A stretch of DNA of 64,000 bases from Pyropia yezoensis (taxonomy: Eukaryota; Rhodophyta; Bangiophyceae; Bangiales; Bangiaceae): contig CM020618.1 of the NCBI GenBank assembly GCA_009829735.1, positions 3,532,882 to 3,596,881 of the forward strand, written 5' to 3'. Below the pieces are notes generated by a model. That model made no database searches. It was not told the origin of the DNA and saw only the letters and a list, made by a program, of their open reading frames with translations. This document shows positions 2,662 to 50,003 of the stretch, piece after piece; the stretch's first letter is position 1, and each line of letters opens with the position of its first letter. The position numbers and the translations under genes are program-made.

Positions 2662-3232
2662 TGTGGTATAAAACTCGATCCTCTCAGACACGTGTCAATA
2701 TCCCTCGGGGGAAAGGGACAGGTAACACAGAAAGGGGAACTACGAGAATGGTATGCCTGTTGCCTCACGTGCCTGCTCGCAGAGCAAACAGATACGCACG
2801 GTAGTGCACACGGGGAAGAGGAAAGCAAACGCGCAGTTGTCTTTTTCCTGAGGGCGCGGGCCAAGGGCGCCTCGCTGTCCCTCTTAACGTGCATCTGGGG
2901 GAGCCTCGGCACGTTGGCCAGGTAGCCCCCCCATAACCCCGAGTGGCCCCGACCCGAGTCTAACCTCGTCAGGTCGGGGGCCACTATCACTACTAATTCT
3001 ATTCCCACTCACTAATCTCACACTCAAATTCTCTCAAATCAAGTCCCTCACAAGTATGCAAAAACCCATCAGCAATCCCTCTCTCACGTGTGGATAGCGT
3101 AGTCCACCGCATCCCAGTGCCGGGCACGGGCCACGGCCGCCAACCATCACCACACGGCGGGCGTGTTCTGGCACCTGGTGCCCTCTGGTTGTAGTCCCGG
3201 GTCGGCGCCAAGTCGGGGCCAGGGATGCTACA
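2662..3232 (-). repeat. 3' LTR of element B (571 bp)
   Basis: Begins TGTGG and ends CTACA on the plus strand. It matches 11741-12311 along its whole length with no difference I can see. On the plus strand, that is antisense to the element, TATAAAA occurs at about 2667-2673; I see no equally good TATA box in the sense direction. Confidence 0.95.
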
Positions 3233-3247
3233 TAGCTCCCTCCCTAG
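3233..3247 (-). promoter_or_regulatory. Polypurine tract of element B
   Basis: Read on the minus strand, AGGGAGGGAGC lies two bases from the 3' LTR, the position expected for the primer of plus-strand DNA synthesis. Confidence 0.6.
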
Positions 3248-3416
3248 TCCGGCACGTCCTCGGGCCGAACCAGGTGCCACCGTGCACAGCCTCGAGCACG
3301 TCCACACCGGTGCCGAGGTCGAGCGTCTTCACCCTGGTCACGATCACCTGCTCCGGTTCTCTGCCCCCCTTCTCTCCTTCACCTTGGCCCTCGCGTTCCC
3401 CCGGAGTCTGGACGTC

Positions 3417-5327
3417 ATGTCCAGTTCCGAGATCCAAGCTGGGCCCGTGGTTCCGGCGGCGAGTGTTGCGGAGGAGAACTCGGGTAGTCGCGCCCCTCTC
3501 CTGCCTCCGGTTCCTCGGGTGTCGATGTCGGCGCCGGTCGCCACGGCGGGGACGGATCGGGTTCCCCCGGCTTCTGTGATGCACCCGGTCGAGACCCCCC
3601 CGGTGGGTCTCCCGGAGATGCTTCTTGGGCAGGACCCTCTGGCGGCCCGGCGCTACTCCACGGTGGTCGGCAACGCCGGCGCGGCCCAGTGCCAGCAGGA
3701 TTGCTTGGACCTCTGGCGCAAGGAACTCCAGCGCGGGGTCTTGACAGAGATGGATAAGGCTCGTCTTCACACGGCGGACCAGATGCGCCTGGCACAAGAC
3801 CGCTCCCAGAGCTTCTCGGGTTCCTCCTGGGTTGCTCGTCTGGAGGATCTCCCCTTCGCGCTGGTGCTGGATCTGCCCTTGACCGAGCGTCGCGTGTCCG
3901 CGTCCGTTCTCCGGTGGCCGGAGGAGGAAGGGTACGTCCACCGGGCGCTCAAGGTCTGGGACGAGGCGCTCAAGGGGTCGGGGAGCCTGAACTGCGACCC
4001 CCGTCCGAGCATGGTCGCTCTGGAGCCGCCTTTCCTGACCCGGAAGTACTCCAAGTTGTCACCGGCACGGGAGCAAGGCGAGCGACGCGGCCGCCAGCGT
4101 GACTTCCTCGTAAGCTGCAACCATCAGGAGTTCTGGAAGCTGGATAAGGCTAACCGGGCGGCGTACTACCCCAAGGTCATCCCGCAGCAGCAGGAAGTCG
4201 AGATCCCGGTCGGGTTTGCTCCTTCCAGCATCCCCTTCACCTGGTACTTCTTGGACGCCTTGACTCAGGCGTCGATCAAGGGCTTCTTCCACTCGATCCC
4301 GTACATGATGTACACGTCCGAGATGACAGTCTTGGCGGCCAACCACTGGCTTCACGAGGTCTTGGTGTGCAACCGGCTTTGGTTTCTCCCTGACCTCCTG
4401 ATGGTCTGGATTGTCGACAAGTTGACCGTCGACTTCCTGTGCAGCCAGGACGAAGAGTACAAGGGGCTCTTCCAGGCGATGATTGACTTCTGGCGTCTGG
4501 TGCCGGTGCATGACCGGAACTTCTTGAACGCGATTGCCGACCAGAACCGCCCGCGTCGGGATGGCTTCGGTTGGGCGCAGGTGGTCTACCAGTCTTCTCC
4601 GGCCAAGGTGCAGCTGGCGACGCCGCTTCCGGCGTGGCCGCAGCTAGGTAGCTTTCCTGCCCCGGCCGCCCTTGATCTTCTGCCAGTTGGGCCGCCGGTG
4701 CAGGAGTCGGGATGGGCCGCGGCGGTCGGTCAGGCGTCTGCGGCGGCTCCGCTTCCTCCTGTTGCACCTGTCGCCCCGGTGGCCTCGCCTGAACCGTCGC
4801 CGGCGCGTTCACGCCCTGTTCCGGCTGTGCCGGTACTTCAAGCTCCTCCGGCACCGCGCCTGTCTGCGGCGAGTCTGGGGGTGACCGTGCGGTCGCCTAC
4901 TACTCCAGCCGCTCCGCCTCGGACGCCTTCTTCCAACGCCGGCGGCGCTGTGCCTCCGCTGGAGTTGGGTACTCCGGTTTCGGGGGCCGTTGTGGACCGT
5001 CCGGTGGTGTCATCCTCGGGGCGGTTCGAGATTCCGGCGCCGACTCTGCGCCTTACCCGCTTCCGGGTGCCTGACTGGTACCTGATCCAAGGTGGTCCGA
5101 CATGCGACCAGTACGACGTCGGTATGATTGAAGACCAGCTGGGTCGTCTTCCGGTGCAGGTTGAAGGCGTTGGGTCCTCCCTGGTGCTGGGTACTTACGC
5201 CAGCGTCTTGAACAACGTGGTCGACCGGGTGTTTGCTTGCGCGGACAGCGGCCAGATGTCGAACAGCCCGGTGGTTGGCGAACTTTTGGCGACCTTGACG
5301 CGGCATGGCTTGGCCCAGCAGTGGTGA
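3417..5327 (+). CDS. Convergent antisense protein of element B (637 codons incl. stop)
   Basis: Large open frame antisense to gag and pol, between pol and the 3' LTR. The frame is open from 3225, but the first ATG is at 3417. N-terminal 90 residues are Pro/Ala/Ser-rich; residues about 100-390 look globular (many Trp, Phe and Leu, no zinc motif or clear membrane segment); a Pro/Ala-rich linker follows, then a folded-looking C-terminal block (about 550-636). A core at residues 300-339 (T300, E302, T304, A308, L312, V315, R320-L321, L324-P325, I332, V338-D339) aligns without gaps over 33 positions with the family C antisense protein. The TGA stop after QQW is followed in frame by 68 more protein-like codons to TAG at 5532-5534. 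Function unknown; not a gag, pol or env that I recognise. Confidence 0.75.
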   Translation: MSSSEIQAGPVVPAASVAEENSGSRAPLLPPVPRVSMSAPVATAGTDRVPPASVMHPVETPPVGLPEMLLGQDPLAARRYSTVVGNAGAAQCQQDCLDLWRKELQRGVLTEMDKARLHTADQMRLAQDRSQSFSGSSWVARLEDLPFALVLDLPLTERRVSASVLRWPEEEGYVHRALKVWDEALKGSGSLNCDPRPSMVALEPPFLTRKYSKLSPAREQGERRGRQRDFLVSCNHQEFWKLDKANRAAYYPKVIPQQQEVEIPVGFAPSSIPFTWYFLDALTQASIKGFFHSIPYMMYTSEMTVLAANHWLHEVLVCNRLWFLPDLLMVWIVDKLTVDFLCSQDEEYKGLFQAMIDFWRLVPVHDRNFLNAIADQNRPRRDGFGWAQVVYQSSPAKVQLATPLPAWPQLGSFPAPAALDLLPVGPPVQESGWAAAVGQASAAAPLPPVAPVAPVASPEPSPARSRPVPAVPVLQAPPAPRLSAASLGVTVRSPTTPAAPPRTPSSNAGGAVPPLELGTPVSGAVVDRPVVSSSGRFEIPAPTLRLTRFRVPDWYLIQGGPTCDQYDVGMIEDQLGRLPVQVEGVGSSLVLGTYASVLNNVVDRVFACADSGQMSNSPVVGELLATLTRHGLAQQW

Positions 5328-5679
5328 GAAACCTTCACCGGCTTCCAGGGGCGCCGACGGGCATATCTGGATGAGCGGGAGCCCCCGGCAACTACCGGTA
5401 CTACTCCGATGGCGTCATACCGGGATGCACCGCGTCCACCGCACTACGTCATCCCGTCTTCCTCCGGTTCCCGTCGTGCCGCGGAGGCAGCGCTGGAGGA
5501 CACTCCCGCGGCTCAGCGTCCGCGCCGGGAGTAGTAGTTGGAGGCAAGGAGGGTGAGGGTCTTGGGAGAAGAGAGGAGGGAAGAGGCGGAGAGAAGGGTT
5601 GCCCGAGCGGGTGCTTGTTTTCCTTGATTGTTCCATGCTTGTATTGCGTGTTCTCCTTGATATACCCGTTCCCTTCTTC
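5328..5679. other. Spacer between convergent antisense ORF and pol of B
   Basis: Bases 5328-5534 continue the antisense frame past its TGA with coding-like composition (rich in Arg, Pro, Ala and Ser). Bases 5535-5679 hold purine-rich then T/C-rich sequence and no gene I can support. Both transcripts should terminate here. Confidence 0.5.
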
Positions 5680-8600
5680 TCAATCCTCTTGTTCCGCATC
5701 CGTTGCGGATGAACTCGGCTCGTCCCGAGGGTCTTGGTTGGCCCCATCCTCTTGGTCCTCCTCCGAGTCCGACTCCAGAATCTTGCCGGCTATGGCCACT
5801 GGAGTGCCCTCTATCCCGTTCCGTCGCGTGTAGGCACAGACATCCGCGATGGGTAGCCGGTTTGAGGGTTCCCAGGTATCATCTGCCGGGTTAAAACCGA
5901 ACCAGCGTACTCGCAGGTACAGGCGTCCGTCTCTCCAGGCATGGTCCACAAACTTGACGTAGACAAATTCCCGACCTTCTTCTTGGGATAGCCAGGGTAC
6001 TGCGGCCCGCTTGCGCCGGGTCAAGTCCCGTTGGCTTGGCGGTGGAGCTCGGGTGACATGGTCGCTGCTCACGCGGTACGGGGAGCCATCCACGTCTAGA
6101 AGAAAGGTCCAACCGTCCGTATTCAGGATCTCATAAGGTCCATCCGTCTTCGAGTCCAGCTTCCCCCGGGTCTTGCTATGGTTGTCCACAAAAACCCAGT
6201 CGCCACCACCCAGTTCCTTGTTCTTTTCCCGAACGCCCTTGTCATAGCCCCGCTTGTATCGCTTCTGGGTCTTCGAGATTGACTCCTTGACTCTTGGGAG
6301 CAGGAGCTTCAGTTGTTCCAGGAACTCATCCTTTGCCTTGGGACCTGACTTCAGTGCAGGCTGGAGACCGTCTGGTATTCTTTCCAGGGAGAAGTTGGTC
6401 AGCCGCCTTGGGGTGACAAAGTCGAGTGGAGCGACCCCCGTTGTCCGGTGAACTCGGGAGTTGTAGGCTAGAGTGAGGACAGCCAGGAGCTCGTCCCAGT
6501 CTTCTTGGTGCTCCTCCACGTAGTGCCGTAGCATGTCTACTAGGGTCCGGTTGAATCGTTCCACCTGGCCGTTCGTTTGAGGGTGGTACGTCGTAGTGTA
6601 CAAGTTCTTGATGCCCATCAGGTCACAGACTCCTTGGAAGAACAGGGATGCAAACTGGGGACCGTTGTCGGTTAAGACGGAGTCTGGAGGGCCGTAGGCA
6701 GCTATCCAGTACTCGCAGAAGGCTGACGTGACATCCAGAGCCGTGATGGTCCTCAGCGGGATTGCTCGAGTGAACTTGGAGAACCGGTCACATATGATGA
6801 GCAGGTATATGTTGCCACTGGATGTTTCAGGTAGGGGCCCCAGGATGTCCATGCTTAAGCTGGCAAAGGGCTCCGCCGCAGGGAATAGGCGTAGCTTAGA
6901 AGTCTTCTTCCTCTGGGACAACCGGTTCCTTGCACACGAAACACAAGCCTCCAGGTACTTATGGACGTCACTGGCCATGGTTTCCCAGTAATAGTGTCGT
7001 CTCATGGAAGCATACATCCGATTGATACCAGGATGTCCGGCCTGGGGAGACGAGTGCTCCAGGCGTAGGATGTCAGCTCGTAGGCCCCGGGGTACGTAGA
7101 CTTGAGTGGCCCCATCGAAGGGTGACACCCGTACTAGGAGTCCGTCCGTAGACTCGGAGAAACGACTGTTCCGGTTCAGGTCCATTTGGTGGCGAAGCTC
7201 CAAGCATTGAGGATCCGTCAGTTGTGCCTCCAGCATCCGGTGAATGGTCACCGGTTGATGAGCTTCAGGTGTCTCATACAGGGGAGCGTGCCAGCCACGT
7301 CCGACATTCGGGAGGATGAAGCAAGGTATGTCCTCCGGGATAGGACCGGTATCGGCTGCAGGAGTCTCCAGCCAGGACATGGTGTCGGCGCAGTGGTGCT
7401 CCCTCCCTGCTCTGGTGCACACCTTGTACTTGAACTCCGAAAGGCGTAGGCGCCACCGGGCGACCCTTCCTTGACTGCTGTCCATACATAGCAGCCACCT
7501 TAGGCTGGCGTGGTCCGTCCGGATGAGGAACTCTTGTCCTTCAAGATATGGCCGTAACAGGAAGCAAGCCCAGACGACTGCCAAGCACTCGCGCTCGGTC
7601 GTGGAATAGTTATTCTCAGCTGGAGTCAAGAAGCGACTGTAGTAGCCTATCGGGAGAAAGTGCCCATCAGGTTGCTGCTGGAGTAGTGAGCACCCCACCT
7701 GGACGCCACAGGCATCCGTCTCCAGAACAAACTGGCCCTCCCGCTTGGGTAACGCCAGTACTGGAGTGGTGGTCAGGCGCTTCTTGAGCTCTTCGAAGGC
7801 CGCGGTCTGCTTCTCGTCGAACACCGGGAGTTGTGCGGGAAGCTTCTTGCTGGTCAGCTTGGTCAGTGGCCGGGCAATCAGAGCATAGTCCCGTACGAAC
7901 CGGCGATAGACGTTGCACATACCCAGGAAGCTCTTGAGTTCCGTCTGGGTCTTAGGTTGCCGTGCATGCCGGAGGGCCTTGATGTTCTTCTCATTGACTC
8001 GGAGCTCCCCCGGACTCAGCACATGCCCCAGATACTCCACCTCAGTCTCAAACAGGTGGCACTTCTCGGCCTTGAGGGTAACTCCAGCCTTGGACAGGAG
8101 GGCCAGGACCTCCCGAAGGTGCTCCAGGTGTTCCGCTGGGGTCTTGGAGAAAACGATAATGTCATCCAGGTAGACCAAACATGTTCTCCACCTTAGCCCG
8201 GACAGGATGATGTCGATGGCTCTTTGGAAGGTCGCCGGAGCATTGGTGAGACCAAAAGGAAGACGTTTGCAGCGGAATAGTCCCAGGTGGCACGTGAAGG
8301 TGGTCTTGTCCTTGTCCTCGTCAGCCAGAGGGATCTGCCAGTAACCGGCATTACAATCCAGCGTCGAGAAGAGGGTGGCATCACCAAGAAAGTCGAGGCA
8401 ATCATCCATCCGGGGTATCGGGTATACGTCCTTGACTGTCATCTCGTTCAGGCGCCGGTAGTCAACGCAGAAACGGAAGTGACCGCCGGTTTTCGGGACG
8501 ACTACCACCGGGAAAGCCCACTCGCCATCAGACGGCTCGATAACATCCATCTTGAGCATCTTGTTAACCAGCTTCTCAATCTCATCCCGGCGATGAGGTC

Positions 8601-9774
8601 CGGCCCGATATGGTTGCATGTGCACTGGCTTAGCTTCCGGCTTGAGTTGAATCCGGTGTAGAGTGGCGTCCATCTTGCCCAGCTCTCCCGACCACAGGTG
8701 CCGATATTCCTGGAGAAGCTTCTCCAGTGCCTCCTTTAAGTCGGGAGGGACATTTTCTTGCTTGACCTTCGGCATCCCGGGTGGTGCTTGTTCGGGTTTC
8801 GGAGTAGCGCTGCCAGCCTGCTCTTGCTTCGGAGGTACGTCTAAGGCCGTCAAGTTGGATGCCAGTTCTTGTTGCAGGTTCAGGAGGTCTTCCTTGCTCA
8901 TAGCACGGGCGGATCCCCGGTAAGGCTCTGCTGTACCAACTCGGGTGCCCTTGGCGAGGGTTATTGGCTTCCGGCTCACGTTGACGATTAGCACCGAGAA
9001 CGGGGTGTGCCTTTCTACCTTCTTGTGATGTCCGTGGGCCAAGTATAACCGGTGTTTCGCCAGAAATTCCTTACGTCCGTAGATCAGGCATTGACCTGCA
9101 ATCCGGGTCGTTACTTGAACCTTGGTCTCCGAGCGAGGAGGTAGGAGCACCGGTTTGAAGAGAGTCAAGGTAGAGGGTGGGATGCGTTCCCTCTTGCTCT
9201 TGGCTACACAAACCTTGGCGTCCAGATGTTCCAATACCGTTGACACAAACCCATGGTTGAACTGGACCTTCCCTTCTCCGGGTAGGATGCTCTTGTCATG
9301 CTGCTTCTGGAAGTCCCAGCCTAGGATGAGGGGGACTGATAGGGTCTTGACTACTAGAAAGGGAAAAAGCATTGGTTCATTGTTGACATAGATGGCGACA
9401 GGAAGACGGCCAAGCGGTCGTAGGGTTTGACCCGAAGCGTCGACGATATGGGTCCGGGTAGGCGCTCTCCAGGCATGTCGACGCCAGCCCGAAGGTAACA
9501 GGTTCCCAGTGATGACGCTTGGTCCGGCTCCCGTGTCAACCACCGGCGTAACAGCTTGGGGGAGGCTATCCCCCACACGCATACGAGCATTAATCTTGAG
9601 GTTTTCTTTACGCAGGACGAGCAATGTCCCCTTGAACACACAGGGTGTCCAGGCGGCTACCGGTTGAGCAGGTAACCGCCGTCCTTTCTCCCGGTACGCA
9701 AGGGGAGAACGGGTAGAAGTACCCTGCCGTTGGAGATTCGGGAAGACGCTTGGGGAGAGCGCCTGCCCTACTCG
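5680..9774 (-). CDS. pol: pol polyprotein of element B (PR-RT-RH-IN-chromodomain)
   Basis: Aspartic protease, reverse transcriptase, RNase H and integrase in the Ty3/gypsy order. Reading from 9639: protease DTGAG at about 35-39; RT with FRFCVDYRRLNE and catalytic YLDD near 490-493; RNase H with ETDACG, TEREC and RTDHASL; integrase with an HHCC zinc site (H..H..CVSCARN) and DDE residues in MDILGPLP, TDNGPQF and NGQVERF. The C-terminal chromodomain-like segment (VKFVDHAW...LRVRWFGF...DDTWEP) is followed by an acidic tail. There is no ATG near the start: the frame is open back to the end of gag in the -1 frame, so pol should be made as Gag-Pol by frameshifting at 9774-9780. No stop or frame break is seen. 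Confidence 0.95.
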   Translation of the reverse strand, partial: RVGQALSPSVFPNLQRQGTSTRSPLAYREKGRRLPAQPVAAWTPCVFKGTLLVLRKENLKINARMRVGDSLPQAVTPVVDTGAGPSVITGNLLPSGWRRHAWRAPTRTHIVDASGQTLRPLGRLPVAIYVNNEPMLFPFLVVKTLSVPLILGWDFQKQHDKSILPGEGKVQFNHGFVSTVLEHLDAKVCVAKSKRERIPPSTLTLFKPVLLPPRSETKVQVTTRIAGQCLIYGRKEFLAKHRLYLAHGHHKKVERHTPFSVLIVNVSRKPITLAKGTRVGTAEPYRGSARAMSKEDLLNLQQELASNLTALDVPPKQEQAGSATPKPEQAPPGMPKVKQENVPPDLKEALEKLLQEYRHLWSGELGKMDATLHRIQLKPEAKPVHMQPYRAGPHRRDEIEKLVNKMLKMDVIEPSDGEWAFPVVVVPKTGGHFRFCVDYRRLNEMTVKDVYPIPRMDDCLDFLGDATLFSTLDCNAGYWQIPLADEDKDKTTFTCHLGLFRCKRLPFGLTNAPATFQRAIDIILSGLRWRTCLVYLDDIIVFSKTPAEHLEHLREVLALLSKAGVTLKAEKCHLFETEVEYLGHVLSPGELRVNEKNIKALRHARQPKTQTELKSFLGMCNVYRRFVRDYALIARPLTKLTSKKLPAQLPVFDEKQTAAFEELKKRLTTTPVLALPKREGQFVLETDACGVQVGCSLLQQQPDGHFLPIGYYSRFLTPAENNYSTTERECLAVVWACFLLRPYLEGQEFLIRTDHASLRWLLCMDSSQGRVARWRLRLSEFKYKVCTRAGREHHCADTMSWLETPAADTGPIPEDIPCFILPNVGRGWHAPLYETPEAHQPVTIHRMLEAQLTDPQCLELRHQMDLNRNSRFSESTDGLLVRVSPFDGATQVYVPRGLRADILRLEHSSPQAGHPGINRMYASMRRHYYWETMASDVHKYLEACVSCARNRLSQRKKTSKLRLFPAAEPFASLSMDILGPLPETSSGNIYLLIICDRFSKFTRAIPLRTITALDVTSAFCEYWIAAYGPPDSVLTDNGPQFASLFFQGVCDLMGIKNLYTTTYHPQTNGQVERFNRTLVDMLRHYVEEHQEDWDELLAVLTLAYNSRVHRTTGVAPLDFVTPRRLTNFSLERIPDGLQPALKSGPKAKDEFLEQLKLLLPRVKESISKTQKRYKRGYDKGVREKNKELGGGDWVFVDNHSKTRGKLDSKTDGPYEILNTDGWTFLLDVDGSPYRVSSDHVTRAPPPSQRDLTRRKRAAVPWLSQEEGREFVYVKFVDHAWRDGRLYLRVRWFGFNPADDTWEPSNRLPIADVCAYTRRNGIEGTPVAIAGKILESDSEEDQEDGANQDPRDEPSSSATDAEQED

Positions 9775-11528
9775 TTTCCCGGGTCCGAGGAGTCCTTAGA
9801 GGTTTCGGTCTCCAGGTCGAAGTCCGTAGGAGCTTCCCTTGCCAGAGCCTCCGTGATGCTCTTTAAGGTTGCCACTCGGATTGCATGTACCTGTGCCTTG
9901 TCCATCTTGGAGGGTGCCCGCCGGTCAGCCCAGTTGACCGCCTTTGCAAACACCAGTCCTTGACGCTTGAGCTTCTCCTGGAGGTCCTTGGGAATGGTCG
10001 GGCACTGGTAGGACATGTGATCCTCCTTCTGGCACAGCCAACAAGACCGGAACCGCTGGTTCTTGACTTGCTTGGGGGCGACCAGGGATGGTTGCTCCTT
10101 AGAAACGAAGCCGCCCCACTTGTCCCCTGACCCCATGGGTGAGGCCTCGCCAACTGCGAGTACTGGTACAGGGCTATCACCTCCCTTATACTTGTCGGGT
10201 CCGGGTCGAACTCGCGACAACGGCTTGGGAGTTGATACCATGGGAGCTTGGAGGGCCCTGGCTTGCCGGTACTTGCCCTGGGTGTAGGCCATCAACTGCT
10301 GGAAGGTGTGCTCTTGATGTTCCTGGTTGTAGTTCTCCGCATCCACTTGAAGACATTCAGGAAGCCCTTCCGAGAAGATCATCTTGAGCCTGTCCTCAGG
10401 GTAAACGTTGCCACAAGCATCGCTCATCTTCCGGACACGACGGGCGAACGCCTCTGGAGTCTCTTGTCTTTCCATGGTTGCCCGGTTCAGCCTGCCGACT
10501 GCTTTACGCAGAGAGTCCGCGTCAGCGTAGGTGGACAGGAGCCAGTTGACCGCCTCCGGATAACTCGCGACGGTACGTCCGACAATGTGTCCGGCAGAGT
10601 CTGGTAGAGCCTGTGCAAACCGCTGTTCCGCTTCTCCGGTCATGAAGTTAACCAGGAGGTAGAGAGCCTTGCCCTCGGACACATCGTTGTCATTGCATGC
10701 CTTGACAAACCGGCGCAGGAAGGCAAAGATAAGCGCCGGTCTCTTCCCGGAAAACTTAGGATGTCCCTCGAAGCTCGGCTGCATTCGCCGGTTCAGGGAC
10801 GCCATCTTCTTGGCCATCTTCCGGGTGTAACCTTGGTCTTGGTTCTCCAGCCGGTAGTTACCCCAATACGTGACCTTGTTCAGGGTGGCATCTCCCACTT
10901 GGTGGGCAGGGAAGTCAAACTCGACTAGCCTGCGCCGGGTGGGACCGGGAGATGCATCCCAATCATATCCCTCCTCAGAGCTGGAGGAACTGGTCTCGCT
11001 GGTGCTAGAGCGACGGCGATGACGCCGACGCCTTCGGCTGCTCCGGTTACCGGTCTTGGAGCCCCCCGCCCCATAGGATGCAAGGGGAGGAAAAGCTTGG
11101 CCGGTCCCAGGAGTCGAGGTCTCAGGGAGACCCGTAGAACCAGTCACAACGGTGCCTCTGGCATCGCTAGTGCCCACAGGAAGAGGTGTATACACCCAGC
11201 TGCCATGTGTGGGTCCAGGAGTAAACACACCAGGGGCTATCCCTGGAGGTTGAGGAGTAGAACCGACAGGAGGGAGACGTCTGCTGCGAGCGGACTCAAA
11301 CGCCGTTGACCCCGGGGTGGCTCCCACAGGAGGAACAGCCGGAGGAACGGGAGCAGGTGGTGCTTGGCCGCCTGTGGACTCCAGTCCGCTACCGGATGTC
11401 ACACCCAGGTCTGCTTCACCCGTAGGGAGAACGCCGGGTTGGGCACCGTCCCCCGCGGTGACCAGGGATGCGTCAAGGGACGCGGGGTCTACCCCTTCGG
11501 GCACCGTCGTGCCAGGGAGGGTAGCCAT
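9768..11528 (-). CDS. gag: gag of element B (586 aa)
   Basis: Gag structural protein. The start chosen is the ATG beginning MATLPGTT; the open frame continues upstream but only with non-ATG codons. A Pro/Gly/Thr-rich N-terminus and an Arg-rich plus Ser-rich stretch (SSRRRRRHRRRSS) precede a capsid-like region (about residues 230-430, with FAFLRRFVKACNDNDVSEGKALYLL). A CCHC knuckle CWLCQKEDHMSYQC lies near residue 520. It ends DPGNE then TAG, with the slippery heptamer directly before the last codon. Intact. Confidence 0.92.
   Translation of the reverse strand: MATLPGTTVPEGVDPASLDASLVTAGDGAQPGVLPTGEADLGVTSGSGLESTGGQAPPAPVPPAVPPVGATPGSTAFESARSRRLPPVGSTPQPPGIAPGVFTPGPTHGSWVYTPLPVGTSDARGTVVTGSTGLPETSTPGTGQAFPPLASYGAGGSKTGNRSSRRRRRHRRRSSTSETSSSSSEEGYDWDASPGPTRRRLVEFDFPAHQVGDATLNKVTYWGNYRLENQDQGYTRKMAKKMASLNRRMQPSFEGHPKFSGKRPALIFAFLRRFVKACNDNDVSEGKALYLLVNFMTGEAEQRFAQALPDSAGHIVGRTVASYPEAVNWLLSTYADADSLRKAVGRLNRATMERQETPEAFARRVRKMSDACGNVYPEDRLKMIFSEGLPECLQVDAENYNQEHQEHTFQQLMAYTQGKYRQARALQAPMVSTPKPLSRVRPGPDKYKGGDSPVPVLAVGEASPMGSGDKWGGFVSKEQPSLVAPKQVKNQRFRSCWLCQKEDHMSYQCPTIPKDLQEKLKRQGLVFAKAVNWADRRAPSKMDKAQVHAIRVATLKSITEALAREAPTDFDLETETSKDSSDPGNE
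9774..9780 (-). promoter_or_regulatory. -1 ribosomal frameshift site GGGAAAC (B gag-pol)
   Basis: On the minus strand the gag frame reads CCG GGA AAC GAG TAG, giving a canonical X XXY YYZ heptamer one codon before the stop. A -1 slip gives GGG AAA CGA and an open path of about 47 codons into pol. The absence of any pol ATG makes the shift the simplest route. Confidence 0.82.
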
Positions 11529-11718
11529 GTTGGTCTCTTGACAGCCACAGTCCAGTTGCCTGCGTGTCCAAAGATCGCCAGACCACAAGAGAGGGGTTGG
11601 AGAGCCAGGAATGGGATTCCCGTGAACGGGTGCAAATAATTCCCAAACCACAGAAAAAGACAGAACAGGAACAACCCAACCGCTGCTCCCAAATGTCTCT
11701 TCTCAAACACTCCAATCA

Positions 11719-11736
11719 TCCCCTGCTGCTCCACCA
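11719..11736 (-). promoter_or_regulatory. Primer binding site of element B
   Basis: On the minus strand, four bases after the 5' LTR, TGGTGGAGCAGCAGGGGA, the same 18-mer as in families A and C. Confidence 0.85.
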
Positions 11737-11740
11737 AATA

Positions 11741-12311
11741 TGTGGTATAAAACTCGATCCTCTCAGACACGTGTCAATATCCCTCGGGGGAAAGGGACAG
11801 GTAACACAGAAAGGGGAACTACGAGAATGGTATGCCTGTTGCCTCACGTGCCTGCTCGCAGAGCAAACAGATACGCACGGTAGTGCACACGGGGAAGAGG
11901 AAAGCAAACGCGCAGTTGTCTTTTTCCTGAGGGCGCGGGCCAAGGGCGCCTCGCTGTCCCTCTTAACGTGCATCTGGGGGAGCCTCGGCACGTTGGCCAG
12001 GTAGCCCCCCCATAACCCCGAGTGGCCCCGACCCGAGTCTAACCTCGTCAGGTCGGGGGCCACTATCACTACTAATTCTATTCCCACTCACTAATCTCAC
12101 ACTCAAATTCTCTCAAATCAAGTCCCTCACAAGTATGCAAAAACCCATCAGCAATCCCTCTCTCACGTGTGGATAGCGTAGTCCACCGCATCCCAGTGCC
12201 GGGCACGGGCCACGGCCGCCAACCATCACCACACGGCGGGCGTGTTCTGGCACCTGGTGCCCTCTGGTTGTAGTCCCGGGTCGGCGCCAAGTCGGGGCCA
12301 GGGATGCTACA
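11741..12311 (-). repeat. 5' LTR of element B (571 bp)
   Basis: Partner of 2662-3232, same length and apparently same sequence. On the minus strand it begins TGTAGC, ends CCACA, and is followed by the primer binding site. Confidence 0.95.
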
Positions 12312-17092: not shown

Positions 17093-17102
17093 TGCTCCAC
17101 CA
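17093..17102 (-). promoter_or_regulatory. Truncated primer binding site next to a C-type LTR
   Basis: On the minus strand the LTR end GCTACA is followed by T and TGGTGGAGCA, the first 10 nt of the shared 18-nt primer site, after which similarity stops. A 3' LTR should not be followed by this, so the LTR at 17104 carries the junction of a 5' LTR. Confidence 0.6.
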
Positions 17103-17103
17103 A

Positions 17104-17466
17104 TGTAGCACAATAGGAATCCGTCGCACGTCCACTCTCAGGGAACACTCACCAAGGGGGATCGGCACCAACGTCACCGGGAGGCCAAGGTTGCTGTCCT
17201 TGGAGCGCAAGCCACGGGACCAAGATGGGAGCCCAAATGGGAGGGGTTTGTTGTTCTACCTTGGCCGGCGGTGGATTCGCCACCGGCCCCCTCGTTATAA
17301 ACCCTCGGAGACACTACTAACTACCCTCCACCCCAAGATGCAAGTCCCTCTGGTCATACGTAACTTATAGATACCGTGACCAGTACGAACTATCAAATTG
17401 AAAGTTTAGGGTTAGAAGTAGCCCCCCTAATATTAGGGTTACAATACGGCCAACCATATTGCTACA
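17104..17466 (-). repeat. Left LTR of C1 (363 bp), mosaic
   Basis: Starts TGTAGC and ends GCTACA. Its U3 half (about 17370-17466) matches the right LTR of C1. Its U5 half matches the C3 LTR instead: it shares CACTCTCAGG, ATTGTGCTACA (minus sense) and the GGCCCCCTCGTT block, where the right LTR has the C2 variants. It is followed by a partial primer site. Confidence 0.88.
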
Positions 17467-18057: not shown

Positions 18058-20421
18058 ATGTCGGACCCCCAGGTACCCGGGGGCGAGGACGACCTCCTGC
18101 CTGAAGAGGGGGAAGAGGTGATGGTGGACGACGTTCCCGTCTCCGCCACCGCCGCCGAGTGCTTCCTAGCGAGCTCGTCGGAGGACGAGGACGACCGGGT
18201 GACCGTTCGTGTGGCCCCGGACGGCGCGCCGGGCGGGTTGTCGTCCGTGTGTAGCGGCACGACGGCTCCGTCGGGTGGCGGACAACCGCGTGCAGCGGTG
18301 GCTTCTACCGCTTCTCCTCCGGCGGCCCGGGTGGCTTCTGTCGCCGGTGCCGGCGCGGCTCTACCTCAAGACGGTGTCGCCGGCGTGGCGGATGGTGGTG
18401 TTGGCACCCCGTCCAGTCCGGCGGGTCAAGACGGCGCGGGTGCCCGCCCGGTTGGTGTGTCCGCTGCGGCGGGTAGCGGGTCTACCCGTGCTGCCCCCGT
18501 GGTACCCACGTCGGGTCCGGGTGGCGGCGATGCTCTGCCCGCGGTGCCGCGGGCGTCTGGTGGTCAAGGTGGGTCTACACCGATGGCTGTGGACTCCGGT
18601 AGTTACTCCGGGCGGGCGCCCGTCCTTCTTCTTCCTCCTCGGCCGCGTGCGACTCCGGCGCCGGCCCCTCTTCCGGTGGGGCATCCCCCGGCGCCCCCTA
18701 TTCTTCCTGGTCCTGCCCGGGCTGCCCCGTTGGGTGGCGGCGTCGCCGTGGCGGCGGGTCAACCCGCCATGTCGATGTTCGACTTGGTGGCTCGGGTTCG
18801 AGGCCTGACTGTGCAAGAGTCAATGGAGTCCGATGGGCGGATGCGGGTGGACTTCCACCTGCCCCATCCCCGTGGAGAGTCCTCCCGGCGCGTCAAGGTG
18901 GACCCGAGTTGGGAGCGGGAGTTGGTGCGGCTGGTCAACCAGCCGAACGCGGTGCGAGTGGAACACCATTGGATCCTGAGTCAGCCGGACGACCGGCATG
19001 CGCAGCTCTGGCGTGCTCGGGTGAGACGGGGTGAGGTCTACCTCGACCCCGCCTTCGGGGTATGCGACCTGATTGCTCCCGCGTTGCCGCGGGAGATTGA
19101 CTACCCGGCTAGTGCTCGGGGGATTGCGGCGGCGGCGGAGCCGGTTGCGTTTGGGGAGACGGTGGGCAGTACCGGTCGGTATCCCGACTTTGATTACTAC
19201 CCGGGGGTATCCCCGTATCTGTCGTTGACGGCTCCCTACCCGCCTATGGCGGGGTTGAAGTCGGCGTCGAGTTGGCGACGTAACCATGGTGTCATGGCGG
19301 ATGCGTTTCGCACGGATATAACGTGTGCGTTGCAGACCGGCAACGGTCGTGCGCCGGTATACACTCCCTTGCGCCCGCCGCTATGGCAGGAAGGGTGGGA
19401 ACCCGCCCCTGCTTTCCGGTTTGACACCGGCTCCTGTCTCCGATACTTCGGGAGTGTGTTGGCCTTCCGGCCGGTCCACCCGTTGCAGGGTACCCTTGAG
19501 GTTACCCTCGGGCAGGCGTCCTCCTTCTTGCTGTCCGTCCGCCGGCAGGGGCGCCTGTTTCATCTTCCGACGGGTGTCCGTCGGCACATCGCGCAGTTGG
19601 GCGTGGACCTGATAGCTGCCAAGACCGGGTTGGCCCGGGAGTTCGAGGCTCTGCTGGCTGTTCACGATGCCATGAACTGGGCTGGGGTGTTGGCCCTTCC
19701 CCCGTACCGGGACCCGCAGGCTGGGGCTACCCCCTTGCCTCGTCACTCGTTGCGTATCCGGCGTACTCAGCCGGGTGAGCCTAGTTGCCATGGGTGGGCG
19801 TCCACCGAGGCCGTTCCTGACCTGGGTATTCCCATGGTTATCCATGACCCTCTTCAGGTCCTTGCCCCGTGGTTCGGTAACCCGATACCGGCGGCGGTTG
19901 GCCGTCGTCCCCGAGAGTGGGGCTCTGCGGGTGGGGAGCGTGAGGTGTCCCGTCGTCGGGCGGAGCCCCGCCGGGGTTACGGTGGAGCCCCTTCGGTAGG
20001 GTCCTACCGAGCCTCGTATCAGGTGCCACCGGCTCCGGTGGTAGCCGTGTCGGCTCCTCTGGCTCCTCTGGCTGCGCCATTGTCCGCTCCCGCCCCTGTC
20101 ATGCAAGACGGGGGTCTCCGTCTCTGGTATGAGGGCGTTGACGCTCTTGTTGCCCGCGCAATGCGGGAGGGTCTCTATGTTAGCTGGGGGGGTATCCCCC
20201 CAGGTGCTGCGCTAGTTGGGTCAGCGCGTTGCTTCGGTGGTGTGCTTGACCGCCTCCAAAAAGCTCTGGAGGACGTGGAGGCTGGCCGCAGCACCCTCGT
20301 CCAGCTATGCACCGAGGTAACTCGGGTGATTGACCGTCGTGAGATTGCCGACCGGTGGAGCACGGAAGTATACGCGCTTACGCGTGAGTGGCCTCCCTCG
20401 GGCAGTGGGTCTACCCACTGA
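18058..20421 (+). CDS. Convergent antisense protein of C1 (787 aa)
   Basis: Intact frame antisense to gag and pol, starting at an ATG in the context CACCATGT. Residues 1-235 are acidic, then Pro/Ala/Gly-rich and probably disordered. Residues about 238-610 look globular (SMFDLVARVRGLTVQESMES onward, with many Trp, Tyr and Arg). Then a Pro/Ala-rich linker and a helical C-terminal block (about 690-775, with LDRLQKALEDVEAG). The core T479, E481, T483, A487, L491, V494, R499-L500, L503-P504, I511 and V516-D517 lines up with the B antisense protein. The C3 copy is nearly identical over the globular part but differs by indels in the N-terminal third. No catalytic motif recognised. It is open although gag and pol of the same copy are broken. 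Confidence 0.78.
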   Translation: MSDPQVPGGEDDLLPEEGEEVMVDDVPVSATAAECFLASSSEDEDDRVTVRVAPDGAPGGLSSVCSGTTAPSGGGQPRAAVASTASPPAARVASVAGAGAALPQDGVAGVADGGVGTPSSPAGQDGAGARPVGVSAAAGSGSTRAAPVVPTSGPGGGDALPAVPRASGGQGGSTPMAVDSGSYSGRAPVLLLPPRPRATPAPAPLPVGHPPAPPILPGPARAAPLGGGVAVAAGQPAMSMFDLVARVRGLTVQESMESDGRMRVDFHLPHPRGESSRRVKVDPSWERELVRLVNQPNAVRVEHHWILSQPDDRHAQLWRARVRRGEVYLDPAFGVCDLIAPALPREIDYPASARGIAAAAEPVAFGETVGSTGRYPDFDYYPGVSPYLSLTAPYPPMAGLKSASSWRRNHGVMADAFRTDITCALQTGNGRAPVYTPLRPPLWQEGWEPAPAFRFDTGSCLRYFGSVLAFRPVHPLQGTLEVTLGQASSFLLSVRRQGRLFHLPTGVRRHIAQLGVDLIAAKTGLAREFEALLAVHDAMNWAGVLALPPYRDPQAGATPLPRHSLRIRRTQPGEPSCHGWASTEAVPDLGIPMVIHDPLQVLAPWFGNPIPAAVGRRPREWGSAGGEREVSRRRAEPRRGYGGAPSVGSYRASYQVPPAPVVAVSAPLAPLAAPLSAPAPVMQDGGLRLWYEGVDALVARAMREGLYVSWGGIPPGAALVGSARCFGGVLDRLQKALEDVEAGRSTLVQLCTEVTRVIDRREIADRWSTEVYALTREWPPSGSGSTH

Positions 20422-20875: not shown

Positions 20876-23833
20876 TTACAGTAGGCGTCGTCGCCTCATG
20901 TAAGGCATGAGGAGTTGGCGGGGTATATTCGCCGCCTGTTCCCAGGTGAGTGAGTCGTATCCGACCCACATAACCTTCACGTACCAGGGTCCTGGTAGGT
21001 TCGGGTCGGTGTGTCCGACCACGCTCTCTACTTGGTATGGAATCCCATCCGGTCCCACCGGGTCATCTGACCGGTGGGTTGTAAGAGCTTCATGTAGCAA
21101 CCCAGCCGGTACCGGCTGAGGCTGTTCCGGCTTCGGAGCAGGTGTGACATCATTCACACTGATGCGTTGGATCTCCGTATCGGAGTGTAAGATAACAGAG
21201 TGGTCATCTCTGTGGAGAATCTGGTACGGTCCCTTGACCGGTTGCATGAGCTTGTTCCCCCGGAACTTCTGGTGTCTGATATAGACCCAGTCACCTGTCA
21301 TCAGGGTTGCGTTGCGCACCCGTAACCGGGCGTCGAAGTTCTTCTTATATCGAAGTTGTGTTCTGTCAAGGGCACCCTTGAGCTTAGGAATCATCCACGA
21401 TAGCTTGGCCAACCAAGCTAGGTGGATACGTTCGGCCGGTCGGCCTTTCGGTGTATCATACCGAGTGCACCTGCCTGGTGGCAGCAGCAGGTTACCGACG
21501 CCCAGTGGCATGACCAACTCCAGCGGAGCGATGTTCGTGCTCCGATGCGGCCTGGCATTGTATGTCAGGGTGAGTACGGACAGAAGCCTGTCCCAAGTGT
21601 TCGTGTGCTCTGCCACGTAGCACTGTAGCATCTTGACGATGGTGCGGTTGAACCGCTCCACCTGCCCGTTGGTTTGCGGGTGGTAGTCGGATGCCCGACG
21701 TGGTTCGATACCGAACATGCCCAGGACCTTAGTGCAGAATGCTGACGTAAGGTTTGCTCCGTTGTCGGAGAGGAGTTGCTTCATGACTCCGTATGCACTG
21801 ATCCAGTGGTCAATCACTGCGTTCATGATGGTGTATGCCGTATCATTCGGGATGGCTGCCGCTCGTGACAGCTGAGTGAAGCGGTCAGACATGACCTGGA
21901 TGTACCTGTTCCCTTCTTCCGTTACCGGAAGTGGCCCGAGTATGTCGATAGCGACTTGCTCGTTGGGCCCATCGGGTGGGAATAGCTTCATGGCAGACGC
22001 CTGCCTATGTAGACTCATGCGGTTACGCGCACAGGGGTGGCATCCCCTTACGTGGTCGACCACGTCGACGGCCATTGCTGGCCAGTAGAAGAACCTTCGC
22101 ATTGCTGCGAACATACGTGAACCCCCCGGGTGTCCGGCTGTGGGGTTCTCGTGTTCTCGTTCCATGACGGCTTGCCGTAAGGACACGGGAACCACGACTT
22201 GATGTCGTCCATCGGCGGGTGCCCGCCGGTATATGATTCCGTCTTCGTTCTCGGAGAAGATGCCGGCCGTACCGGCCAGGAGGTTAGCGCGATGACGTCT
22301 ACAGTCGTCGTCATTGGCTTGTGCCTCGCGGAAGTCCGCGAGGGTTAGTGGGCATGCTCGGTGTGCCATGGTATGGTCAACCATACCTTGGGTAGCGTTA
22401 CCCACCATGCAGACCGGTACCACCGGGATGTCCTCGTCCACCGGGCGGGTATCCCCGCTCGGGGTGTCGAGTCGAGACAATGCGTCTCCGAGATGGTGGG
22501 TTGACCCAGCCTTATACACGGTACGGTAGTCGTGCTCGGCCATTTTTAGCCTCCATCGGGCTAGCCTCCCATGGCTATCGGAATCCTTGTCACCAAGGTT
22601 GAGGAGCCATCGTAGGGGTTCGTTGTCGGACCTCACGATGAACCTGGAGCCCTCCAGGTATGGACGGAGCAGTTGCACTGCCCATACAACTCCGAGGCAT
22701 TCACGCTCGGTGGCACTATATTTACGCTCAGCCGGGTTGAGTGTCCGGCTGAAGTATCCTACCGGACGTAGGTCCGGGATAACGTTATCGGTACCGATCA
22801 AGGTCTCCCCCTGTAGCAGGGTGCATCCCACTTGGGTGTCGCACGCATCGACATCGATGACGAAGGTACCCCGTCGGTGCGGTAACGCAAGGACGGGTGG
22901 GGATAGTAGGGCTCGCTTCAGCGACTCGAAGGCCTCCTCTTCGCTAGGCGAAGGGGGTTGGAGTACCTTGGGCAGGGTACTGCTCGTAAGAACCGTTAAC
23001 GGTTTAGCTATCCGAGCGAAGTCCTTGACGAACCGTCGGTATACATTGCACATTCCCAGGAAGCTCTTGAGCTGTGTCTGGGTGTTAGGGAACCGGGCAT
23101 CCCGGAGTGCCCGGGTATTGGCTTCGAGTACCCCTAGTTTACCAGGGGTTATCTGGTGGCCCAGATACTCGACCGTCTGTTGGAAGAAGGCCCACTTCTT
23201 CTGACGCAGGGCTACCCCGGCGTTCCGCAAGGGGGTGAGTACCTCGTCCACATGTTGCACATGGTCATCCATGTTACGCGAGAAGACGATAACGTCATCG
23301 AGGTACACTAGGCAGTTACGCCACTTCACCCCCGACAGTATAATGTCGATAGCCCGCTGGAATGTAGCGGGGGCGTTGGACAATCCAAAGGGCATCCTTT
23401 GGAACTCGTACACTCCACTGTGACAGACGAATGCCGTCTTGGGGATATCCTCGTCCACCACCGGGATCTGCCAGTATCCGGCATTGCAGTCGATGGTGGT
23501 AAACACCGTAGCTTCCCCCAGGGAGTCGATGCATTCATCCATCCTTGGTAAGGGGTATGAGTCCTTCTTGGTAACCAAGTTGAGGCGTCGATAATCGATG
23601 CAAAACCGAGGGGTTTGATCCTTCTTCGGTACGATAACGACTGGGGCACCCCACTCCGACATCGAAGGTCGGATCACCTTAGCTTCACTCATCCTCTTCA
23701 CTTCTCCATCAACGATCTCTCGTTGCATAGGTCCCGCTCGGTGCGGTTGTGACCGGGCTGGGCGTGCGCCTCGTACCAGGTCAATACGATGTTGGGTTGC
23801 CCCAATGGTACCCAAGGCTCTCCGCCTGTCCAC
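20876..23833 (-). pseudogene. pol: pol of C1, RT-RNase H-integrase-chromodomain part
   Basis: RT with FCIDYRRLNL and YLDD, RNase H (DVDACDTQVG, TEREC, RSDNEPL), integrase (zinc site ending CHPCARN; DDE at IDILGPLP, SDNGANL, NGQVERF) and a chromodomain-like C-terminus (YQVESVVGHTDP...YVKVMWVGYDSLTWEQ), ending MRRRRLL. It is out of frame with the protease ORF at about 23815-23824, where two extra bases are present relative to C3. C2 has the same lesion. Confidence 0.88.
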
Positions 23834-25044
23834 ATGACGTCATGCTTTCTTAACATCCGTCGTACCCCTTCGGCTACCGAAGGGGGAAGGTGGTCGAGGT
23901 CAGCCTCGGCCCGTGCCTTCAATGCTTCTTGGTCCTTCGGCGGAATATCCGCCGGTAATGATGGTCGACTAGGCTTCCCGTCATCGGGTTGCTGTCGCTC
24001 GGTGGTCTCGGCGACCGCCAGCACCTCAAGTGGGTCCACTTGACCTTCCTTGTCAGGGGTAAGGACATCTCCTTCGTAGAGCTCAGCAATCCCGAGGATA
24101 GTTCCCTTCGGGAGGGTGACTGCCTTACGGCGATAGTTCGCCATCACTAGGAGGGACGACCCTCCTGATGGGTGGTCTATGAGACCGTTGGCCATGGTCA
24201 ACCCATGGCGCTTGTACGTCCGCAGGTTGCACCGGACTCTGCAGATGCCTGCGAGGTCGCAGTTAACCGGGAGGACTGTCTCCGACAACGGCTCAAAGCG
24301 AGTTCGCTTGGCCAACCGAAGTGTCTTCGGCTCGACACTTGCGTACACCTCAGCCACGTTAACGTGGCTCCCTTGTAGCGTCAGGTCCCTGACGATAGCC
24401 GTGTGTCCTCGCTTCGTCCCGTCGGCTTCTTGAAGCTCGACGGTCCTCCGGCCTGGCCGGATTGTATCAACGTGAACGTTGATGAAGGTGCACCCCAGTA
24501 TGCAGGGCACCGATAGGGTCTCACACACCAGGAAGTCGACTTCCGTGGTGAGTTCCCCGATGGTAACCCGCAGCGACATCGCTGCGGTCGTACGAATGAG
24601 GCGACCATTCGCGTCCTTGATGGTGGGTCCCCGAGTCACTCTGACTCGCGGAAGCCACTTGTCCGGGAGGGTATCCTTCCGGATAAGGTTGGGTCCAGCC
24701 CCTGTATCCAGTACCGGGTAGTACGATCGTGTCGACTGGGGGTCAACCCCCAGTGTGGCTGATACCTTGAAGTTCTCCAAGGCAAACAGCACGTGGCCTA
24801 CACCGATATCCGGTGTAGCTCGGGCATCCTGAACAGGGCCCTTGTCTGGTTCCATGTGACGGGGCTTCCCGTCCTCTCCTCCCAACCTTGGTGGTTGGTC
24901 ATCAATCCCCTGACGCCGTGTCGTCGGGGCCGGAAGGTGTACCCGGGGGTTGATGCGGCGTCGGCTCAACCGCGCTCTCCGTGGGGCTTTCCCCGCGGTA
25001 CTCCGGGGTGGCTTGCTTGGGTTACCCCAGCGCCCCCCGGTCAT
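23698..25044 (-). pseudogene. pol: pol of C1, protease part (448 codons)
   Basis: N-terminal part of pol with protease motif LDTGAG near residue 114, followed by the long linker to RT. The frame runs past the shared 2-bp lesion into nonsense and overlaps the RT frame by 135 bp. It starts at an ATG eight bases after the gag stop; in C3 this segment is continuous with RT. Confidence 0.85.
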
Positions 25045-31850: not shown

Positions 31851-32663
31851 ATGGATGTATCAATCCCAGGGGGTGGCAACCGGGCCAAATCGGGCTCGGG
31901 CTCGAACGCACCGACCATGAAAGCCTGGACCCAGCTTACAGCGTTTGTCACGCAAGTGAGCGAACAACATGAGGCTCACAAGATGGAATGAGCGGACGCT
32001 AAGCAGCAACTGTCCGAAGCCAAGGCCAGGGCCACTACTACTGGCATGAAATCCGCGAGGCCGAACAAACCCGTGGATTTCTCCGGTAAACCCGTGACCG
32101 TTGAAGCGTGGAGCTCGCATATGGATTTCTACATGCGACTGACTGACCCCGACGATGCGTGCAGTATCACTTGCACCTTCCTCGACGGCAAAGCGTTCGA
32201 CTGGTGGAAGGTCTACTGTCAGACTGCAGCTGTCCCGAACTGGGAATCCTTCCGTTCTGCGCTAATCCGACGCTTCAGTCCACTGAACAAGTCACAAGCG
32301 GTACGAGACAAGCTGCACTCGTGGCGCCGAATCAAAGACTTCGGAACGTTCAACAGGACGTTTCTGAGCGTCCTCTTGGACATCTCTGACTTCACGGAAG
32401 CCCAGAAGATTGACCGCTACACCCTAGGCTGGAAGCGGGACATCTGGCACCCTCTTTGTCTCAAGACCTACTCAGATCTTGAATCTGTCATGACTGACGC
32501 TCTGCGCGTGGAGGCTGCCAAGGCTGGTGCCTCGACGCACCTTGACGGCGCACCTGCGAGGCCATCCACGACGGATGTCATTCCCATGGATATCTCCAGC
32601 ATCAAAATCGAGAAACTCACGCCTGAAGCGCGTCAGCGCTGCATGAGTGAAGGCCTCGGCTGA
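31851..32663 (+). pseudogene. gag: Decayed gag of a fourth Ty3/gypsy family
   Basis: Begins at the ATG of MDVSIPGGGNRAKSG, has an in-frame TGA after HKME at about 31989, then continues open for 205 codons from 32046. The second part carries a retrotransposon gag capsid pattern (FDWWKVYCQTAAVPNWESFRSALIRRFSPLNKSQAVRDKLHSW is the relevant stretch, residues about 50-95 of that part: WW, W..F..AL..RF.P). It stops at LTPEARQRCMSEGL, just where such Gags go on to the zinc knuckle. No pol follows. Confidence 0.75.
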
Positions 32664-34257
32664 GGTCGGATACGTCGAATGGTTCAAGGCGGTCCGCGAG
32701 GAAATGACCCAAGGGACCTTGCCGGCTGCACCGTCGGCCTGTGACCTGCTTGGGTCACCTCCGTACCTGAGCCGTCCCGGGTTTCAAGCTACCCAAGCCC
32801 CTCCGGTGTTCCTTCGGCACCATTGGGACAAGTCTCGGTTCCTGGTAGGGTGGAATCAACAAGAGTTTCCCAGCTGTTCGGCATCTACCCGAGGTCTCCA
32901 TTGCGTTCGGGTTCCCCACTGCTTTGAGAACGACGAGATTTCGCTCGCGGCTCTTGTGGGACTTCCTGCCGTTCAGTGTTACTTCACGGAACTTCTCCGT
33001 TCGTCGGTCGCGTTCGCGTGGTACGTGTTCCGAACGGAGTGGACCACCATCTGTGCCATGTATCATCTTGGCTTCGCTAGGCGTGAGGGCTACCTGTGCC
33101 TCTTCCCTCTGTCCCTTCGTACGTGGATCCTGCGTATCGGTACGCGTACGATCTGCAAGGGTCTCTGTGGCGTGGAAGACACAGCAGGGCGGGACCTGGA
33201 CGCCCTCCTGACCCTGAGTAACAAAGTGGTTTCCGTGGCGGGTCTCCATGCTCGTCTACTAAGTTCCGGGAGAATTCGCAAGGACCGTGTTTCCTTAGTG
33301 CAGATTCGGTTCCAGAGCCGGGACGGGGTATGGACGGCTCTAGTGGACAAGGACCTGGCCCCGCTAAGCCTGCCGTACTCGTCGGACGTGCTTAAGGGAG
33401 GCGAGTTCCTTGGGGACAAGGACGAGAACGCGGGCGAGTCGGACGAGGCCCGGCACGTGGGTATCCCTGGGGGTCAGGGCGCTCGGTCGTCGAGGTCAGT
33501 CGGTCATCGTTCCACCCCTCAAGAGGGTCGTACCGTGTACGTGGCAAACCTTCTGCTCCATGGGGACGTACTGGACGCGGAACTTATGGACCTGGAGGGA
33601 AACCTGACCACCCATGCAGTTCTTGGGCTACGTGGTTTCTTCGGGGGCCCCGCGGACGTCCTTGCTAACGCACATGTGGGGCCCCTGTTGTCGGCTTCCC
33701 TTCACGCGACGGTGAGCCTCGGGGCCCGCGTTGCCGATTGGATCCGGGCTCAAGGAGGGTCCAGCACCCGAGACTACAAAGGGCTACTGAGCGTGGTTGA
33801 CAGTGACGATATACGTGCGGACTTGAGGGCCGAGCTGGGAACCGCTAAAGCTCAGAACACTTCCAACGATGGTCAGCGCCCCATCATCCTCTCCCACGTG
33901 GATAGAGCTGGCCGACACTGTCAAGCCATCGCCGTAAACGCCCATCATCATGACGACATTTCTGGTACAGTCGTAGACACACCGCATGACGGGGTGCGCA
34001 TCGTCAATCAGATGTACGACATCCAGCACCACGTCACAGACACAGAGGCCCAGAACAAAAGGACCATCCACAGCGACGGGCACATACATGGTAGAAGATA
34101 TTGCATAAGGAGGACCAAGGCCACCGACGCTGTCCTCCGTGGCAGGACCACCCACAGGTGTAAACACTTGCCGCACCACCTGGTCCAAGGCCACCGCCGA
34201 GGCCATCCCTGCTACCGCCCCAGCCGGTATGGCAAACGCACTAGAGGCGGCTGCTGA
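32664..34257 (+). CDS. Uncharacterised long open frame
   Basis: Open for about 530 codons directly after the gag relic. No ATG marks a convincing start and I recognise no domain. Parts read like protein (VYVANLLLHGDVLDAELMDL and on to RVADWIRAQGG), while the last 150 codons overlap a competing antisense frame and are rich in His, Arg and Cys. It could be a captured or host gene or a chance frame in GC-rich DNA. Confidence 0.25.
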
Positions 34258-43039: not shown

Positions 43040-43040
43040 T

Positions 43041-50002: not shown

Positions 50003-50003
50003 T

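Follow-up and report, generated by a model that had tools for sequence, protein, structure and literature searches.

Evidence for an antisense third gene between pol and the 3' LTR in Ty3/gypsy retrotransposons of the red alga Pyropia yezoensis

In two families of LTR retrotransposon in the genome of Pyropia yezoensis, a long open reading frame lies on the strand opposite to gag and pol, between pol and the 3' LTR. Are such frames genes or a by-product of base composition, and if they are genes, what might their proteins do for the element? The window analysed here, a 64,000-nucleotide stretch of contig CM020618.1 (assembly GCA_009829735.1), is a nest of Ty3/gypsy LTR retrotransposons that fall into families A, B and C (Table 1). 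The antisense frames of B and C had been picked out in a sequence-only reading of this DNA, and their coordinates, strands and neighbouring LTRs bear out that placement. It is very nearly certain that they constitute a genuine third gene, convergent with pol, in these elements; the function proposed for it below is offered much more tentatively.

Table 1. Elements, genes and candidate promoter sites in the 64,000-nucleotide window
Feature	Position	Strand	Remarks
Element B	2662..12311	-	Inserted in element A copy 1; 5-bp target duplication GGACG
B 3' LTR	2662..3232	-	571 nt; identical to 5' LTR 11741-12311
TATAAAA in B LTR	2667..2673	+ (antisense strand of LTR)	Possible promoter for antisense transcription, 750 nt upstream of ATG 3417; chance about 0.09
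B antisense gene	3417..5327	+	636 aa from ATG 3417; ORF list, Markov simulation, relative P0006
B pol	5680..9795	-	PR, RT, RNase H, IN; sub-threshold chromodomain match
B gag	9768..11702	-	644 aa; sub-threshold zinc-knuckle match
Element C1	17093..27846	-	LTR repeats 98.4% identical; LTRs and domains present
C1 3' LTR repeat	17093..17466	-	374 nt; 98.4% identical to 5' LTR repeat 27473-27846
TATAAA in C1 3' LTR	17296..17301	+ (antisense strand of LTR)	762 nt before ATG; chance about 0.18
C1 antisense gene	18058..20421	+	787 aa; opposite minus-strand gag-pol
C1 RT-RNase H-IN frame	20876..23839	-	Pfam
D, relic third member	32647..34257	+	536-aa open frame; residues 6-224 align with B frame residues 244-467
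Element C2a	42677..49639	+	Left part only; C2b interrupts it before its antisense gene
Element C2b	49640..64000	+	Nested in C2a; 3' LTR from 63935, cut by window end
C2b antisense gene	60901..63348	-	815 aa, ATG end 63348; opposite plus-strand gag-pol

Element B has the paired LTRs, the target duplication and the order of gag and PR-RT-RNase H-IN that define a Ty3/gypsy LTR retrotransposon, with Pfam matches along pol in the order RVP (sub-threshold), RT_1, RT_RNaseH, H2C2 and rve. Because its LTRs are identical and it is flanked by the target duplication, B is taken to be a recent insertion. No target duplication flanks C1, and the 3' LTR repeat of that element ends in 11 nt (17093-17103) that match the beginning of the primer-binding site on the element's strand, which together possibly mark an aberrant end or a recombination product. 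The likely primer-binding site itself, GGTGGAGCAGCAGGGGA, is common to families A, B and C and occurs at six places (622, 11719, 27465, 36314, 43042 and 50005), once at the start of each of A1, A2, B, C1, C2a and C2b. Among the pols of A, B and C, identity over long alignments is about 41-49%, and between those of the elements that carry an antisense gene about 46%. The chromodomain PF00385 was matched at 15.4 bits in A and at 19.7 bits in B, scores under the cut-off of 25.1, and C1 gave no match.

Several features of the individual copies deserve mention. The gag of C2b is a single 731-aa frame; in C1 and the 99% identical C2a that region is split over overlapping frames, and the PR and RT-IN frames of these two copies overlap by 142 nt (20876-27336 and 43187-49667), so arranged either through a shared frameshift or through programmed frameshifting. 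A run of N at 54728-55227 in C2b is flanked by sequences (51391-54727 and 55228-58562) that are 99.7% identical, and this repeat seems to be an assembly artefact in which one stretch was written twice around the gap. Both copies of element A are interrupted after pol, and a 563-aa minus-strand frame (34651-36342), which has no Pfam match and has short tandem repeats near its end, runs across the start of the second copy. The antisense frame between pol and the 3' LTR is complete in B and in C1, confirming the position likened beforehand to that of Tat-lineage elements; in C2b the 3' LTR is cut at the window end.

Long frames could in principle arise from composition alone, as G+C-rich DNA yields long spurious frames and the window contains 51 frames that run for 200 aa or more from stop to stop. 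This explanation is already contradicted and can be given almost no credence. Two loci, B and C1, were subjected to first-order Markov simulation of the interval between pol and the LTR (1000 sequences each). The longest ATG frame reached no more than 429 aa in the B simulations, as against 636 aa observed, and no more than 406 aa in those of C1, as against 787 aa, so that 0/1000 simulated sequences matched the real frame at either locus; the dN/dS values and conserved relatives described below speak against it as well. When C1 and C2b are compared over the antisense gene, the antisense frame alone of the six is free of internal stops, the other five having 5 to 24 stops per sequence. The codon usage of the antisense frame is also the closest to that of gag-pol among the six frames, in all three genes, although by small margins.

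Evidence for a protein product comes also from the pattern of substitution in family C, where a single pair of copies, C1 and C2b, supplies all dN/dS estimates for the antisense gene. By protein alignment (779 codons) dN is 0.085 and dS 0.224, a ratio of 0.38; by nucleotide alignment (777 codons) the ratio is 0.435 over the whole gene and 0.266 from codon 241 onward. In the latter portion there are 44.5 synonymous changes over 436 sites and 34.5 nonsynonymous changes over 1205 sites, and 47 of the 79 changes fall at third positions (p 2e-6). Fisher tests gave 2e-13 for the whole gene, 2e-8 from codon 241 and 4e-6 for codons 1-240. Ratios for the other five frames exceed 1 with a single exception on the minus strand (0.50 over the whole gene and 0.37 from codon 241), which has its third positions in common with the antisense frame. 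The C antisense protein is thus under purifying selection. A ratio near 1, which the sequence-only reading had named as evidence against a gene, was not found in this pair, and with frame lengths beyond chance in B and C1 its claim of a real accessory gene is upheld.

Elsewhere in the same pair dN/dS is mostly 0.09 in RT-IN, rising to 0.26 at the integrase end, 0.21-0.22 in PR, and 0.14 and 0.45 in gag. Two other pairs are too recent to inform: RT-IN of C1 and C2a, with a ratio of 0.64, differs by 4 synonymous and 8 nonsynonymous changes, and a portion of pol in two copies of A by 6 and 8 (0.40). Constraint on the C antisense gene is uneven, since ratios by block (protein alignment) range from 0.15-0.23 in codons 241-600 through 0.65 in 601-720 to 0.13 in the last block; the ratio in the N-terminus is about 0.45. 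From codon 241 the dS of 0.11 resembles that of gag-pol (0.06-0.17), and in the first 240 codons dS is 0.43-0.63, several times that of the remainder. Blastn leaves 17981-18540 of C1 wholly unaligned. As judged from these divergences, the first 240 codons would either have been exchanged with a more distant lineage or be hypervariable.

Relatives of the C protein extend beyond the window. A search with P0003 recovered P0004, from a Logan contig, and P0005, from Pyropia vietnamensis (E 5e-64), a red alga of the order Bangiales. A profile built from four sequences, scored against 7987 candidates (those sharing most words), found at least five proteins; those not yet recovered were P0007, P0009 and P0008, the last of them a further protein of P. 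vietnamensis. The C1 protein and P0005 are identical at 236 of 489 aligned residues, and within a 143-residue core they align with one gap. The C protein is conserved as far as P. vietnamensis. An acidic N-terminal block (approximately DDLL-EEE) is present in five of the seven C-type proteins (P0002, P0003, P0004, P0008 and P0009), the five that reach the N-terminus, where the first 60 residues contain 11 to 18 D+E against 1 to 3 K+R; the remaining two are shorter at this end, P0005 starting about 76 residues downstream of where P0008 does and P0007 within the core. For family C the accessory-gene reading is well supported. No relatives of P0001 or P0002 were confirmed in IMG/VR or in GTDB genomes.

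Both P. vietnamensis relatives, the products of MMPV_008444 and MMPV_009450, are annotated as hypothetical proteins, and LTR elements are known to capture cellular genes, as passages of PMC7264820 describe. The antisense gene might on those grounds be a captured host gene, or the Pyropia proteins might themselves be host genes, carried along without any function related to the element. This is rather improbable: the gene occupies one position in elements with pols as diverged as those of B and C, a third copy, also divergent, is found in DNA rich in repeats, and no Pfam match ties the protein to a known family. An accessory gene of the elements themselves remains the preferred reading.

For element B the evidence is of a different kind. 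Its antisense frame extends from stop to stop over 3195-5327, and the gene may start either at 3417 or at a second in-frame ATG upstream, at 3225, within the LTR. Sequence searching found one relative of the B protein, P0006, identical at 507 of 514 shared residues (7 differences). Since this close relative continues for 69 residues past the stop of the window's frame, the stop at 5325-5327 is probably premature, and a B copy that lacks the early stop exists. Frequent stops in otherwise intact elements had been proposed as a sign against a real gene; the two C copies are both open over the gene, but the single B copy ends early by comparison with P0006. The B protein lacks the acidic N-terminal block (5 D+E and 3 K+R in its first 60 residues). 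Its length, codon usage, the near-identical P0006 and a homologue elsewhere in the window (D, below) together suggest that B, too, carries an accessory gene.

D is a frame additional to those of the sequence-only reading. Its protein is clearly homologous to that of B by the alignment statistics: BLASTP gives E 8e-4, and 0/2000 shuffles equalled the real score, with z of 6.2 at full length and 7.6 for the core, although the C-terminal pieces are weakly alike (31/2000 shuffles). D sits in repeat-rich DNA. A gag relic (31992-32663), apparently of another clade, lies on the same strand and ends where the D frame starts; it matches Retrotrans_gag at 8e-8 and Ty3_capsid below the cut-off of that model. 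A search of the interval from 27.8 to 36.4 kb, at E up to 0.01, detected no pol of A, B or C type. With a gag relic on its own strand and no such pol nearby, D is a relic that may originally have had either orientation to gag-pol.

Whether B and D are in turn related to C is a harder question. A profile of B and D compared with C by hhalign scores 22.6, as against at most 19.3 in 100 column-shuffled controls, in a register that reads E-T-A-L-L-P-I, but the hhalign probability is 1.4%, and across all comparisons of B or D with C it is only 1.0-1.9%. In pairwise shuffling, core pieces of B or D against C at a gap-open penalty of 8 gave 17 and 24/2000, and D against the C2b core at a penalty of 11 gave 21/2000. 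The B core against four C-type proteins at a penalty of 11 gave 180, 71, 707 and 99/1000, and core to core 85/1000, none of them significant; D against C1, D against full-length C2b, and two C-terminal comparisons gave 98, 285, 785 and 117/2000. BLASTP returned E 0.63 for D with C, 1.6 for B with P0008, and 0.021 for B with C on a Pro/Ala stretch. A motif apparently shared at the N-termini of B and C (SG-RAP-LLPP-PR) was discarded (64, 130, 220, 258 and 645/2000 shuffles). The earlier claim that B and C share one protein plan is accordingly upheld in part: B has a homologue in D, and the B+D profile beats its 100 shuffled controls, but the hhalign probabilities are of the order of 1-2% and most pairwise shuffles are not significant. 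Homology of B and C is only suggestive on these alignments, and a single ancestral gene for B, D and C is plausible, though unproven.

The statement that the antisense proteins have no recognisable domain holds. Pfam searches with E limits of 0.1 and of 10 returned no useful match, and neither bZIP nor any other convincing Pfam domain was seen; HBZ, the antisense protein of HTLV-1, is by comparison a bZIP protein. TRP28 (PF04195) was not matched by hmmscan at E up to 10 in P0001, P0002, P0003, P0005, P0006 or two core pieces, a search in which the HMMER filters drop most matches above E 0.1, and a relation beyond its reach is possible. Matches to DUF6214 (E 0.1 for C2b and 0.04 for a C1 core piece) fall far under the cut-off and were taken as chance. 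The C2b protein had no match in a PDB sequence search; for B, three Rieske chains (E 0.08-0.6) aligned over the Pro/Ala linker and were attributed to composition. AlphaFold models lack usable confidence (mean pLDDT 29.3 from a seven-sequence alignment and 32.8 from a two-sequence alignment), and the protein plan therefore rests on composition and conservation. Scanned with a simple pattern for the basic clusters relevant to nuclear localisation, B and C1 show a single cluster apiece, and C2b lacks one.

Could the protein be structural, a second capsid-like or envelope-like product translated from its own mRNA and travelling with the particle? Helical segments dominate the (poor) AlphaFold models, and B has one borderline hydrophobic stretch by hydropathy (Kyte-Doolittle mean 1.72 over 19 residues), to which the C core has nothing comparable. 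No Retrotrans_gag, Ty3 capsid or envelope Pfam model matched any of the seven antisense sequences or pieces, whereas the gag relic beside D is readily recognised by Retrotrans_gag; a diverged capsid could nonetheless be missed, because that model fails to match the gags of B and C as well. On balance a structural role is unlikely. An acidic N-terminus, as in C, would suit a regulator acting in trans better than an enzyme or an envelope protein.

A regulatory role, by analogy with antisense genes elsewhere, is the likeliest function, but is held with some doubt. In the mechanism proposed, transcription toward pol would start from a promoter within the 3' LTR or immediately internal to it, giving rise to a separate antisense mRNA. 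The protein encoded by that message would be modular: a disordered N-terminus, which in C is acidic, would be followed by a conserved core, then by a Pro/Ala linker and a helical C-terminus. Acting in trans, and probably nuclear, it would adjust the element's transcription or later steps, along the lines proposed for gene23 of Grande and for retroviral antisense proteins. Candidate promoter sites are available: TATAWA occurs on the antisense strand of the B LTR and of three of the four C LTRs examined (the fourth lacks TATAAA there) and on the sense strand of none of the five, while looser TATAA matches are present on the sense strand of all four C LTRs. These TATA-like sites are compatible with chance, at the probabilities given in Table 1, and constitute a lead only.

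The same convergent layout would also allow the antisense transcript itself to be the active product, annealing to the genomic RNA and yielding double-stranded and small RNAs, with the frame secondary; passages of PMC7264820 discuss such a mode for plant elements. Selection at the codon level and the lone stop-free frame indicate a protein product, and an effect of the RNA alone is highly improbable, although both modes could coexist. Taken as a whole, the explanation that joins a genuine gene, an antisense mRNA and a regulatory protein acting in trans is judged evenly poised between right and wrong. More tentative is a history in which this previously undescribed protein family dates back to a common ancestor of several Ty3/gypsy lineages of red algae (B, C and D) and has stayed opposite pol while diverging far faster than pol, with a hypervariable acidic N-terminus under conflict with the host or between elements, as an independent counterpart of angiosperm TRP28 and of the retroviral antisense genes.

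PyRE10G of Porphyra, a copia-type element, was considered as a known relative and not adopted. In the literature searched (titles and the starts of abstracts, with few subscription journals covered) no red-algal antisense retrotransposon gene was found, and the passages on Porphyra or red algae in PMC2864245 and PMC2774666 mention none. The arrangement is already known; what look new are the protein family and its red-algal setting. Flowering plants have supplied most of the catalogued antisense genes in the interval from pol to the 3' LTR. In family C selection can be measured, and the Pyropia relatives open a way to direct tests of antisense transcription and function.

Among known systems, antisense ORFs of unknown function are reported for Grande, RIRE2, PvRetro13 and Boty of Botrytis in the relevant passages of PMC7264820. 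Boty, from B. cinerea, with its gene brtn, is likewise a non-plant LTR retrotransposon with an antisense accessory gene, in another host group, and the likeness is one of layout. HTLV has an antisense promoter inside the 3' LTR (PMC7264820). The B and C proteins give no bZIP match. A close parallel is the Retand/Tat group (gene23 of Grande, RIRE2 and Retand), in which, according to the pertinent sections of PMC11963269 and PMC7264820, a large ORF likewise occupies the space from pol to the 3' LTR, reads toward pol and encodes a protein of unknown function. The antisense ORF is described as a constant trait of Retand elements, with TRP28 encoded by all but two tabulated clusters, in those sections of PMC11963269; the survey covered Viridiplantae only, found Retand members among eudicots and Liliopsida, and classes their lineage as non-chromovirus. 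The elements of Pyropia differ in that TRP28 was not detected in the B and C proteins, that the named relatives are red-algal only, and that the pols of A and B, but not of C, have sub-threshold chromodomain matches. That a different protein, under purifying selection, occupies this spot in elements of a red alga suggests that LTR retrotransposons benefit from the slot itself.
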